Below are positions 186 to 61,252 of a DNA stretch of 64,000 nucleotides, one piece after another. Every line of letters starts with the position of its first letter. Positions within the stretch are counted from its first letter, which is position 1. Origin of the DNA: Pseudomonadota bacterium. GTDB lineage: Bacteria > Pseudomonadota > Gammaproteobacteria > Burkholderiales > Rhodocyclaceae. Both the position numbers and the translations under genes were made by a program. The DNA lies in contig JAGTRT010000001.1 of NCBI GenBank assembly GCA_018261895.1, positions 1 to 64,000 of the forward strand. The letters are read 5' to 3'. The notes below the pieces were generated by a model that saw only the letters and a program-made list of their open reading frames with translations, did not search any database and had not been told where the DNA came from.

Positions 186-2093
186 TCAATCAACGGAAGG
201 CAACGCCTCCAGCGCCTCATGCACTTCCAGCCACCGCATTTCCGCCTCATCAATCTGCTCGCCAAGCATCCCGGCCTGTTTGTGCATTTCCTCGCTCTTC
301 ACCCGATCGACCGTGGTGTAGAACGCCGGATCGGCAAACGCGGCATCCAGCGCCGCTTTTTCCTCGTTCCATTTGGCCAGCTTGCGTTCGAGTTGCTCGA
401 TTTCCTTGATCAACGGCCGACGTTGGGCCAACAACGCTTGGCGATTGGCCTTGGCATCGGCGCGTTGGGCGAGGCGTTCGGTTTTCTCGGCGGCGGCATC
501 GGGTTCCGGGGCTTTTTCGGCGCTGCGCTGGGCGGCGAGCCAGGCGGCGTAGTCGTCAAGGTCGCCGTCGAATTCGGTGACTTTGCCGTCGGCGACGAGC
601 AGCAGTTCGTCGGCGCAGGTGCGCAGCAGGTGGCGGTCGTGCGAGACGAAGACGACGCCGCCTTCGTAGTCCTGCATGGCGAAGGTCAGGGCTTCGCGCA
701 TTTCGAGGTCGAGGTGGTTGGTCGGCTCGTCGAGCAGCAGCAGGTTGGGCTTGGTGCGGATGAGCAGGGCCAGCGCGAGGCGCGATTTTTCGCCGCCGGA
801 GAAGGGGGCGATGGCGCGGGTGGCCATGTCGCCGCGGAAATCGAAGCCGCCGATGTAGTCGCGCAACTCCTGTTCGGTGGCGGTCGGTTCGAGGCGGACG
901 AGGTGTTGCAGCGGCGATTCGTCGGGACGCAGCTGTTCGAGCTGGTGCTGGGCGAAGTAGCCGATGTTGAGGGCCTTGGCTTCCTTGCGTTCGCCGCCTT
1001 GCTGGGGAATGGTGCCGGCGAGGAGCTTGATCAGCGTCGATTTGCCGGCGCCGTTGCGGCCGAGCAGGCCGATGCGGCAGCCGGGGCGCAGGGTCATTCT
1101 GATTTTGGCCAAAATTTCCCGTTGACCGTAAGACACGCCGGCGCCCTCGATGGCGAGCAGCGGGTCGGGCAGGGCGGTCGGCTCGCGGAAGCTGAAATGG
1201 AAGGGCGAATCGACGTGGGCCGCGGCGACCATTTCCATGCGTTCCAGCGTCTTGATCCGGCTTTGCGCCTGGCGCGCCTTGGTCGCCTTGGCCTTGAAGC
1301 GTTCGATGAAGCTGGAAAGATGCGCAATTTCGCGCTGCTGTGCCTCGTAGGCCGACTGCTGGGTGGCCAGCCGGGCGGCGCGGGCGCGTTCGTAGTCGGA
1401 GTAACCGCCGGTGGTCAGGCTCAGGCGCTGGAGGTCGATGGCGATGATCTGGCCGACGACGGCGTCGAGGAAGTCGCGGTCGTGCGAGATCAAAAGCAGC
1501 GTGGCCGGCGTGTTCTTCAGCCAGTTTTCGAGCCAGAAGACGGCGTCGAGGTCGAGGTGGTTGGTCGGTTCGTCCAGAAGCAGGAGGTCGGCGCGGCAGG
1601 ACAGGGCGCGGGCGAGGTTGAGGCGGACGCGCCAGCCACCGGAGAATTCGGCGACCGAACGCTGAAAGTCGGCGTCGGTGAAGCCCAGGCCGTGCAGCAC
1701 CTCGGCGACGCGTGCCTTGGCCGAATAGCCGCCGATCTCGCCGTAACGGGCGTGCAGGTGGCCGATGGCCTCGCCGTCGCCCTTGGCCTCGGCTTCGACC
1801 AGCTCGCGTTCGATGCGGCGCAGCTCGGTGTCGCCGTCGAGCACGAAATCGATGGCGGCATCGGGCAGCGCCGGCGTTTCCTGGGCGACGCGGGCGATGT
1901 GCCAGCTGGCCGGGATGTCGACGTCGCCGGATTCGGCGTGCAGTTCGTTGGCGAGCAACGCGAAGAGGCTGGATTTGCCGCAGCCGTTGGCGCCGACAAC
2001 GCCGACTTTCCAGCCGGGATGGATCTGGATGGAGGCGTCGATGACGAGCGGGCGGCCGGCGCGGGCGAAGGTGACTTGGCGGAGGGCAATCAT
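186..2093 (-). CDS. ABC-F family ATP-binding protein (YheS/Uup-like)
   Basis: A soluble duplicated ATPase of the ABC-F class. Members of this class act on ribosomes rather than membranes. Two ATP-binding cassettes are visible: Walker A GANGCGKS at residues 34-41 with signature FSGGWRVRLNLARAL, and a second Walker A GRNGAGKS near residue 345 with signature FSGGEKSRLALALL. Each cassette is followed by LLLDEPTNHLDL. The linker between them is rich in basic and Gln residues, and the C-terminal 90 residues look coiled-coil. 635 residues is normal for YheS. No transmembrane segments are present. A copy of the 33-nt repeat lies inside the gene at the start of the second cassette (YGQREILAKIR), without disturbing the frame. 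The exact ABC-F subtype is not certain. Confidence 0.93.
   Translation of the reverse strand: MIALRQVTFARAGRPLVIDASIQIHPGWKVGVVGANGCGKSSLFALLANELHAESGDVDIPASWHIARVAQETPALPDAAIDFVLDGDTELRRIERELVEAEAKGDGEAIGHLHARYGEIGGYSAKARVAEVLHGLGFTDADFQRSVAEFSGGWRVRLNLARALSCRADLLLLDEPTNHLDLDAVFWLENWLKNTPATLLLISHDRDFLDAVVGQIIAIDLQRLSLTTGGYSDYERARAARLATQQSAYEAQQREIAHLSSFIERFKAKATKARQAQSRIKTLERMEMVAAAHVDSPFHFSFREPTALPDPLLAIEGAGVSYGQREILAKIRMTLRPGCRIGLLGRNGAGKSTLIKLLAGTIPQQGGERKEAKALNIGYFAQHQLEQLRPDESPLQHLVRLEPTATEQELRDYIGGFDFRGDMATRAIAPFSGGEKSRLALALLIRTKPNLLLLDEPTNHLDLEMREALTFAMQDYEGGVVFVSHDRHLLRTCADELLLVADGKVTEFDGDLDDYAAWLAAQRSAEKAPEPDAAAEKTERLAQRADAKANRQALLAQRRPLIKEIEQLERKLAKWNEEKAALDAAFADPAFYTTVDRVKSEEMHKQAGMLGEQIDEAEMRWLEVHEALEALPSVD
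1097..1129 (-). repeat. 33-nt interspersed repeat, copy 1 (intragenic)
   Basis: The core TTTCCCGTTGACCGT is on the plus strand; the ACGGTCAAC strand is the sense strand of the ABC-F gene. In this copy the reading frame gives Gly-Gln-Arg-Glu rather than the Thr-Val-Asn-Arg seen in the other intragenic copies. Confidence 0.75.
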
Positions 2094-2155
2094 GAGGGGG
2101 GTGATTATAGCGGGGGCATCGCGGCGACGCTTTTGGCATCCGCGCGCAGCGTCTC

Positions 2156-2188
2156 ACGGTCAACCGGAAAAAATGCCCAAAATACGAA
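2156..2188 (+). repeat. 33-nt interspersed repeat, copy 2 (intergenic)
   Basis: Starts ACGGTCAACCGGAAAAAATG on the plus strand, in the gap between the divergent ABC-F and HD-GYP genes and upstream of the plus-strand HD-GYP gene. It is one of only two copies with the ACGGTCAAC strand on plus. Confidence 0.8.
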
Positions 2189-60253: not shown

Positions 60254-60256
60254 GGC

Positions 60257-61252
60257 TCAGCGGTTGACGACGGTCGGTCGGTAGCCGAGCGCGCCGCGGA
60301 TCTTCTCCGCAACCCGGTCGGCATCGCCACGGCTGGCATAGGGGCCGAGCTGGACCCGGTGAATGCCATTGCCCGGGTAGACGCGCATGGTTTCGGTCAG
60401 CCAGTCCAGTTCGCGGAGCAGGTGGTTTTTGAGGCTTTCGGCGTTGTCGGCGCTGGAAAAAGCGCCCAGCTGCAGGTAAATGCCCTTCGCCGCCGGGGCA
60501 TCGCCGCCGGTTGACGGCTGGGTTTGTACCGGCCGTTCCTCCAGTGCCATGCGCCTGGACAGTTGCTCGATTTCGTCGCTTTCGGCGTTGGGGGCGCGCG
60601 GTGGCGTGACCTGAGCGTAGGCCGTGCCCGCCGGTTCGCCCGGAATGATGGCTTCGACTTCCACCTGTCCGCTGCCGCCGTTCACCAGCCCCAGCTTGTA
60701 GGCGGCGGTGTAGGAGAGGTCGATGACGCGGTCGGCATGGAAGGGGCCGCGGTCGGTGACGCGGACGACGACCGACTTGCCGCTCTGCACGTTGGTGACG
60801 CGGGCGTAGGACGGCAGGGCCAGCGTGGTGTGCGCCGCGGTCATGGCGAACATGTCGTAGGGTTCGCCGATGGACGTTTTCTGGCCGTGGAACTTCTTGC
60901 CATACCAGCTGGCAATGCCGCGTGCCTTGTAGGGTTTGACCGCGGTGTTCGGGACATATTCCTTGCCGAGGACGACGTAAGGCTTGGTCGCCGGCTTGTG
61001 CAGCGGCTCCCATTTCGGCTCGGCATCGGGAATGTCGTCGAGGCCATCGGGAATGTCGTCGGCCGGGCCGTCGTCCTTGTAGAAGCCACCACCGCGTTTG
61101 AGCACGGCGGTCGGCCTTTGCGTCGGCGTCGGGGATTTCGAATTTGGCTGTTTTTCCCGGTTGACCGTGGGACTCTGCATCGGGGCCGGCGGCGCACTGC
61201 CGCAGGCGGCGAGGAGCAGGGAAACGGTGATGGCAGCAAGGCGGCGCATCAT
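60257..61252 (-). CDS. rlpA: RlpA-type septal lipoprotein with SPOR domain
   Basis: 331 residues. Lipobox LAAC at about 14-17; linker with Pro and Arg; double-psi beta-barrel (ARGIASWYGKKFHGQKTSIGEPYDMFAMTAAHTTLALPSYARVTN, DRGPFHADRVIDLSYTAAYKLG) and C-terminal SPOR repeat (IYLQLGAFSSADNAESLKNHL, IHRVQLGPYASRGDADRVAEKIRG). RlpA binds denuded glycan at the septum. ATG overlaps the rodA stop (ATGATG). A 33-nt repeat copy in the linker encodes PTVNREKQPNSKS. Confidence 0.93.
   Translation of the reverse strand: MMRRLAAITVSLLLAACGSAPPAPMQSPTVNREKQPNSKSPTPTQRPTAVLKRGGGFYKDDGPADDIPDGLDDIPDAEPKWEPLHKPATKPYVVLGKEYVPNTAVKPYKARGIASWYGKKFHGQKTSIGEPYDMFAMTAAHTTLALPSYARVTNVQSGKSVVVRVTDRGPFHADRVIDLSYTAAYKLGLVNGGSGQVEVEAIIPGEPAGTAYAQVTPPRAPNAESDEIEQLSRRMALEERPVQTQPSTGGDAPAAKGIYLQLGAFSSADNAESLKNHLLRELDWLTETMRVYPGNGIHRVQLGPYASRGDADRVAEKIRGALGYRPTVVNR
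61136..61168 (-). repeat. 33-nt interspersed repeat, copy 11 (intragenic)
   Basis: Inside rlpA, in the low-constraint linker just after the lipoprotein signal. TTTCGAATTTGGCTGTT then TTTCCCGGTTGACCGT; sense strand is ACGGTCAAC. Confidence 0.8.

Follow-up and report, generated by a model that had tools for sequence, protein, structure and literature searches.

To our knowledge, uptake sequences are established only in the Neisseriaceae, whose DNA uptake sequence (DUS) is GCCGTCTGAA, and in the Pasteurellaceae, whose uptake signal sequence (USS) has the core AAGTGCGGT. Other short sites serve the organisation of chromosomes, such as matS, KOPS, the SlmA and Noc sites, and Chi. Here we describe a motif with the core ACGGTCAACCGG that recurs in the first 64,000 nucleotides (hereafter the window) of contig JAGTRT010000001.1, from a Rhodocyclaceae genome (assembly GCA_018261895.1), and that is probably a DNA-uptake sequence, i.e., a genome-wide 'self' tag, judging by what the motif works like. 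According to the papers cited here, uptake sequences show no orientation bias, are in excess in non-coding DNA and originate gradually by point mutation (PMC1939737), while inside genes one orientation is favoured for both DUS and USS (PMC2346458). AT-tracts lie beside the USS core of Haemophilus influenzae, where their rigidity and kinking have been discussed (PMC7811141), and ComN/PpdA is the candidate receptor proposed for Pasteurellaceae (PMC12616744). In Neisseriaceae, related species carry DUS dialects, DUS pairs form dyad arrangements in one species (PMC3630211), and mobile or integrated elements are recognised by their atypical DUS distribution (PMC7371117).

The motif shares with the USS a short core followed by AT-tracts (PMC7811141), the lack of orientation bias, sites in both coding and non-coding DNA and a point-mutational origin (PMC1939737), as well as a favoured orientation inside genes (PMC2346458). 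However, it is sparser, with 381 exact 15-mers in 3.3 Mb as compared to 1,465 9-bp cores in H. influenzae (PMC7811141), and its core is unrelated and dyad-symmetric, in a host from another class of bacteria. With the DUS it has in common dialects among related species (PMC3630211), integrated elements that stand out by their motif content (PMC7371117) and a host with ComP-family minor pilins; it differs in its unrelated sequence, in its length (38 bp with A-tracts, against 10-12 bp) and in that no link between dialect and receptor was seen when ComP_DUS-family pilins were compared by eye at 21 loci. Moreover, DUS and USS are non-palindromic, whereas the core described here is dyad-symmetric and some relatives have palindromic forms. 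The many dispersed sites and the symmetric core are also reminiscent of chromosome-organising sites (the latter as in matS or Noc sites), but neither polarity nor an unusual gap was found on the one closed chromosome analyzed. Searches of the open-access literature, judged mainly from listings, gave no earlier account of this kind of motif in these bacteria. A third uptake-sequence family, unrelated in sequence to DUS and USS, is the best explanation for the motif.

Structure, abundance and placement of the motif

The initial annotation had reported 11 copies of a 33-nt motif in the window, and all 11 were recovered at the same places as exact ACGGTCAAC cores, against a mean of 0.34 and a maximum of 3 among 100 shuffles. 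Using a matrix built on 463.9 kb sampled from the same assembly, the unit was found to be TTTC-ACGGTCAAC-CGG-AAAWWW-nGCCC-AAAWT-yG-AAAT, with information near background on both flanks. Thus, the copies do align without gaps as first described, but over approximately 38 bp rather than 33. A T-rich 5' arm (T at -4 in 96% of copies) is followed by the core ACGGTCAACCGG and, on the 3' side, by AAAWWW (+12 to +17), GCCC, AAAWT (+23 to +27) and AAAT (+30 to +33); hence, the end that had been regarded as loose and drifting in fact consists of conserved A/T tracts, phased at about one helical turn and all on one side of the core. The core itself is a pseudo-palindrome, CGGT-CA-ACCG, with T/A-rich arms, and its CGGT and ACCG arms are paired in 91-100% of strong copies; the dialect of this genome is asymmetric overall and yet has a dyad-symmetric core.

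All but one of the 11 window copies score >47 bits on the matrix, the copy at 53929 being weak (28 bits) and lacking the second A-tract. The largest direct-repeat family returned by a repeat finder also counts 11 members: all nine minus-strand cores and two further sites, at 32200 (63%) and 38401 (60%); the two plus-strand cores are missing from it because the family holds direct repeats only. Five window copies lie in genes (ABC-F, histidine kinase, FMN_bind_2/PaiB, MBL-like and DPBB/SPOR RlpA-like, the MBL-like name being the label of the initial annotation, given from sequence only) and, as had been stated, four of them encode TVN(R/G)(K/E), while the one in the ABC-F gene uses a different frame.

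The motif shows neither of the two outcomes that would have spoken against the initial annotation, a restriction to the window or a count near random expectation: the exact 15-mer ACGGTCAACSGGAAA is found 381 times in the assembly (3,299,370 bases in 93 contigs, 85% complete), divided 181 to 200 between the strands, and its reversed control has 0 matches. A sample of 752.6 kb (22.8% of the assembly) was then used for finer counts; as it consists mostly of contigs already known to hold matches, densities derived from it lean high, which does not affect the count of 381. The 12-mer core occurs in this sample 100 times, with 0.37 expected, and its 36 one-mismatch variants occur 37 times together, with 10.9 expected, which fits the prediction of a gradual origin by mutation (PMC1939737).

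The sample contains 123 strong copies, 66 within the 463.9 kb used for the matrix and 57 in the remaining 288.7 kb, and home-made gene calls place 62 of them in fully intergenic and 46 in fully coding positions, with 15 across a gene edge. As chance would give an intergenic share of 7.3%, the excess is strong (p = 3e-37). A copy is present in 23 of the 49 convergent spacers, but in no more than 29 of the 222 tandem and 8 of the 86 divergent ones. Moreover, only one gap between copies is shorter than 500 bp, as compared to 9.5 expected, while the overall spread of gaps resembles a random one (coefficient of variation 0.89 vs. 0.98, with 13% of simulations as low). Regarding orientation, the initial annotation proposed that copies follow transcription, and this is true of the five window copies inside genes and of 31 of the 46 in-gene copies of the sample, which are sense (p = 0.026), but neither of copies in tandem spacers (15 in the direction of the genes, 14 opposite) nor of the genome-wide total; the intragenic preference published for DUS and USS (PMC2346458) would account for the pattern first noticed. 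The in-gene copies use few frames, and therefore the same peptides recur (TVNRKK..., ESHGQPEK..., ...FRLTV).

A closed chromosome was available for genome G409, where a sub-pattern covering 68 of the 379 exact copies was followed: placement is uniform (Kolmogorov-Smirnov p = 0.44), no gap exceeds chance (largest-gap p = 0.32) and there is no polarity (p = 0.59). This even, unpolarised placement weakens the role in chromosome structuring that had been listed as an option.

Taxonomic range and dialects

In an even draw of 399 genomes from the order, 11 have any exact match to the dialect of our genome. Five of these, our genome included, belong to the same genus, which also provides the next highest counts (14, 7 and 5), and the other six have one match each. 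A looser pattern, CGGTCRACNNNNAAA, applied to 249 genomes of the family, gave 48 to 514 copies in the eight same-genus genomes and a maximum of 18 in the 241 outside the genus. Overall, both scans confine the motif to one genus, Azonexus/Dechloromonas by its named relatives. Across 76 genomes of this genus, the looser form occurs in 87-594 copies in 41 (motif-rich), in 30 or fewer in 32 (motif-poor) and in intermediate numbers in three, these classes having been set after the counts were seen. Strand totals over the 41 motif-rich genomes are 6340 and 6612, with a largest |z| of 1.8. Named motif-rich relatives are Azonexus fungiphilus DSM 23841 (268), Dechloromonas sp. H13 (223), A. hydrophilus ZS02 (167) and the metagenome genome DEC001_d71 (594); motif-poor ones are D. 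agitata is5 (11), D. hankyongensis (18) and A. hydrophilus DSM 23864 (18), and genomes of this class are often slightly above the reversed control (e.g., 30 vs. 4 in G439). Two strains both called A. hydrophilus, ZS02 and DSM 23864, thus differ sharply in motif number.

It had been suggested to look for the motif in related genomes, and the relatives do carry it, in dialects. Twelve of the 76 genomes carry at least 33 copies of ACGGTCAACCGGAAA, the form of our genome, and the others carry no more than 12. In G336, a common form is CTGCGGTCGACGGCAAAA, with 93 exact GCGGTCGACGGCAAA; in G307, ACGGTCGACCGT is the most frequent 12-mer and often sits within the palindrome CACGGTCGACCGTG; A. fungiphilus has many palindromic CGGTCGACCG sites, which match both strands at once; and G465 mixes G and A starts. 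The stretches of G218, G307, G336 and G111 analyzed here, and two or three of those of G409, were partly chosen around known matches. Four motif-poor genomes were scanned for a replacement motif over 100 kb each, an extent at which a weak or rare one would escape, and no dispersed 12-mer exceeded a z of 5.0; the same scan on the partly pre-chosen stretches of motif-bearing G336 and G218 reached 8.8 and 7.8. In motif-poor G403, the 10-mer CGGCTCGGTC occurs 10 times in 100 kb, with 0.9 expected (z 6.6), and is present in all five stretches (L093-L097). As separate observations, G111 has CRISPR-like arrays at L070:4891-6810 (repeat ...CTCTCACCCCGGAAAGCTACAATC, 67-nt spacing), and the stretches of G307 contain words of this repeat about 52 times.

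Origin of single copies and RNA folding

How a copy arises was followed in one gene, the PaiB-like gene of the window. Of 17 orthologues compared over the motif site, 14 align without gaps, and the alignment of the remaining three (L145, L148 and L169) contains short gaps (1-2 residues). Orthologues with a copy read TVNRKIL or TVNREIL where those without it read AVDGEIL or ASEGEVL, at the same aligned codons, from which it follows that the copy was written by substitutions that altered the protein, and not by insertion. CGGTCRAC is present at this site in five of the 17 (L124, L128, L130, L158 and L145, the last without the rest of the motif), and L153 and L154 are near-misses. Together with the 381 copies and the dialects, this agrees with the earlier proposal that the motif is selected as a nucleic-acid signal and is not a mobile element.

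Several relatives keep the copy upstream of the DsbA-like gene at -61 (in one case -58), each with its own version of the motif. This copy forms one arm of a hairpin, and base pairs in the 11-bp stem covary (GCGACGGTCAA, GCTACGGTCAA and GCTACGGTCGA, with matching opposite arms), as seen in L123, L124, L130, L155 and L158. Shorter stems occur at about the same place in other relatives, e.g., L129, L137 and L149. Apart from this copy, at 46660, the intergenic copies tested for folding (four of five) behave like shuffles on both strands, with z between -1.82 and +1.82, which speaks against the RNA-level option of the initial annotation.

Competence genes, foreign DNA and the uptake reading

The initial annotation had placed a DNA-uptake signal first among its interpretations, and this is supported by our analysis, as a function that we infer from several features taken together: abundance, strand neutrality, the intergenic excess with its convergent preference, few close pairs, substitution-made copies, dialects, and the layout of a core plus A-tracts. 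Under this reading, the type IV pilus/competence machine would preferentially bind double-stranded DNA of its own kind via the motif, with a surface receptor, probably a minor pilin, contacting the ACGGTCAACCGG core and the phased A-tracts shaping or loosening the DNA for entry, while uptake bias and recombination would together spread and keep the copies (molecular drive). Somewhat less firmly, we favour the view that this is a third, independently evolved uptake-sequence system, in Rhodocyclaceae, with a receptor of its own other than Neisseria ComP or Pasteurellaceae ComN/PpdA.

The genome context, with an acquired island that lacks the core (one examined, in a relative) and the expected competence genes, is in line with this reading. 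In keeping with the earlier suggestion to look for such genes, ComEC (an open frame of 802 residues) and DprA were found in our genome, as was a minor-pilin operon. The operon encodes a ComP_DUS-family pilin and one of GspH type, along with PilY1, a member of the PilW family and, assigned by position only, PilV- and PilX-like proteins. This operon and an ispH-like neighbour (L115:3639-10267) were missed by the native codon-usage model and entered as long open reading frames only, suggesting an unusual composition of these genes. Among the 76 genomes of the genus, our own included, ComEC was found in 71 and a ComP_DUS-family pilin in 70.

The island lies inside comEC of motif-rich G429 (G429:C33:109612-143311; L230, L231), spans 33.7 kb and encodes a phage-type integrase, a B-type DNA polymerase, and D5/VapE-like, UmuC-like, SRAP and SNase proteins as its six named products. 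It holds 0 CGGTCRAC cores, where 16-24 would be expected at the density of stretches from three other own-dialect genomes. A second genome of the genus has an island of about 33 kb at nearly the same place in comEC (G449:C1:2218693-2251157; L228, L229), and the two islands share blocks at 71-92% DNA identity. In addition, one IMG/VR contig matches the extended motif pattern; as that database holds phages of this genus in unstated number, a single match is no evidence of avoidance.

Nevertheless, several results weigh against an uptake function. The strongest is the dyad symmetry of the core, which could mean that a dimeric intracellular protein is the partner; the fully palindromic sites, frequent in both A. 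fungiphilus and G307, would fit such a protein as well. Long comEC genes were not significantly associated with the motif: they occur in 36 of the 44 genomes that carry at least 31 copies and in 21 of the 32 below that number (p = 0.12), or in 31 of 37 and 14 of 19, respectively, among genomes at least 90% complete (p = 0.48). ComEC and ComP_DUS-family pilins are also present in motif-poor genomes; genomes of the same dialect carry visibly different members of this pilin family (compared by eye at 21 loci, at one of which no pilin was found); and the member of our genome matches 18 solved chains that are general pilins, including PilE (4noa), none of them named ComP. Since the pilins occur without the motif, differ within a dialect and match general pilins, no receptor pilin is singled out. 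Moreover, comEC is interrupted in some motif-rich genomes, as in G429, and the zero count of the G429 island indicates that the motif was not gained there but not that it is avoided, because the trinucleotide composition of the island (51.5% G+C vs. about 60%) predicts only 2.5 cores. As a further observation, the match to comEC in G417, G406, G408, G410 and G452 is split, short or located at the end of a contig, whether the genome is motif-rich or motif-poor.

Alternative explanations

Of the other explanations, the one that survives best, although we regard it as unlikely, is that a DNA-binding protein acting as a dimer inside the cell recognises the motif, either a factor that organises the nucleoid or segregates chromosomes, like Noc, SlmA or MatP, or the regulator of a very wide regulon. 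The dyad-symmetric CGGT-CA-ACCG core with its T/A-rich arms, the fully palindromic versions seen in A. fungiphilus and G307, and the small number of close pairs would all suit such a protein. However, the closed G409 chromosome shows neither an unusual gap nor polarity (for 68 of its 379 copies), and the divergent spacers, which bear promoters, are the least occupied (8/86) and the convergent ones the most (23/49), the reverse of a regulon. In addition, the extra A-tracts lie on one side only, and copy numbers near background in 32 of the 76 genomes of the genus would be surprising for a site that organises the chromosome.

It is highly improbable that the motif is a small inserting repeat, of the repetitive extragenic palindrome or miniature inverted-repeat transposable element type. 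Many copies are indeed near-identical and of fixed length, those at 24103 and 31533 being identical over 40 bp, but the PaiB copy was made by substitution (14 of 17 orthologues gapless, in this one gene), the alignment of copies has no sharp boundary, one-off versions are over-represented, in-gene copies occur in several frames and both orientations, and the dominant form varies from genome to genome. Equally remote is a signal in transcripts (a terminator, processing or protein-binding site), for which the sense excess in genes (31/46), the favoured convergent spacers and the conserved hairpin with the 46660 copy as one arm could be cited, against the balance of orientations in tandem spacers (15 same, 14 opposite) and genome-wide (181/200), the shuffle-like folding of four of the five intergenic copies tested, the intragenic preference also published for DUS and USS (PMC2346458), and the Rfam result for the window, which at gathering thresholds consists of a single tRNA gene (22986-23056) away from the copies.

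Features of the window

The positions of the copies, of a degenerate twelfth match and of the hairpin are collected in Table 1.

Table 1. Motif copies and associated features in the 64,000-nucleotide window, with matrix scores and encoded peptides.
Feature	Position	Strand	Score and remarks
Motif copy in ABC-F gene (186-2093, minus)	1096..1133	-	51 bits; other frame, ...SYGQREILAKI...
Motif copy, divergent intergenic region	2152..2189	+	56 bits
Motif copy near 3' end of histidine kinase gene (6854-7978, minus)	6907..6944	-	52 bits; TVNGK
Motif copy, intergenic	24103..24140	-	66 bits
Motif copy, intergenic	27514..27551	-	66 bits
Motif copy, intergenic; 40 bp identical to the 24103 copy	31533..31570	-	66 bits
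Degenerate twelfth match in HMGL-like gene; possibly a decayed copy or chance	38401..38438	-	26 bits
Motif copy in FMN_bind_2 (PaiB-like) gene (42266-42883); substitution-made	42646..42683	-	47 bits; TVNRKIL
Motif copy between putative acyl-CoA dehydrogenase gene (46710) and DsbA-like gene (46005-46631; DSBA domain)	46660..46697	-	59 bits
Hairpin, 11-bp stem, one arm formed by the 46660 copy	46650..46696	-	Fold z -5.15; paired changes in relatives
Weak motif copy in plus-strand gene (53410-54456); second A-tract lost	53925..53962	+	28 bits; TVNGKK
Motif copy, convergent intergenic region	56715..56752	-	66 bits
Motif copy in RlpA-like (DPBB_1/SPOR) gene (60257-61252)	61135..61172	-	53 bits; TVNREK

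Implications

If the motif is a DNA-uptake sequence, self-recognition of DNA would have evolved again, in freshwater and wastewater bacteria, with a different core and the same core-plus-A-tract plan as the USS, and undiscovered natural competence would be predicted in Azonexus/Dechloromonas. The motif would then also make foreign DNA recognisable in these genomes and be of use in transforming such bacteria. Moreover, a genus with both tagged and untagged species would offer a comparative test of why such tags evolve, and its dialects, ranging from asymmetric to fully palindromic, would allow the birth, spread and loss of uptake specificity to be followed.

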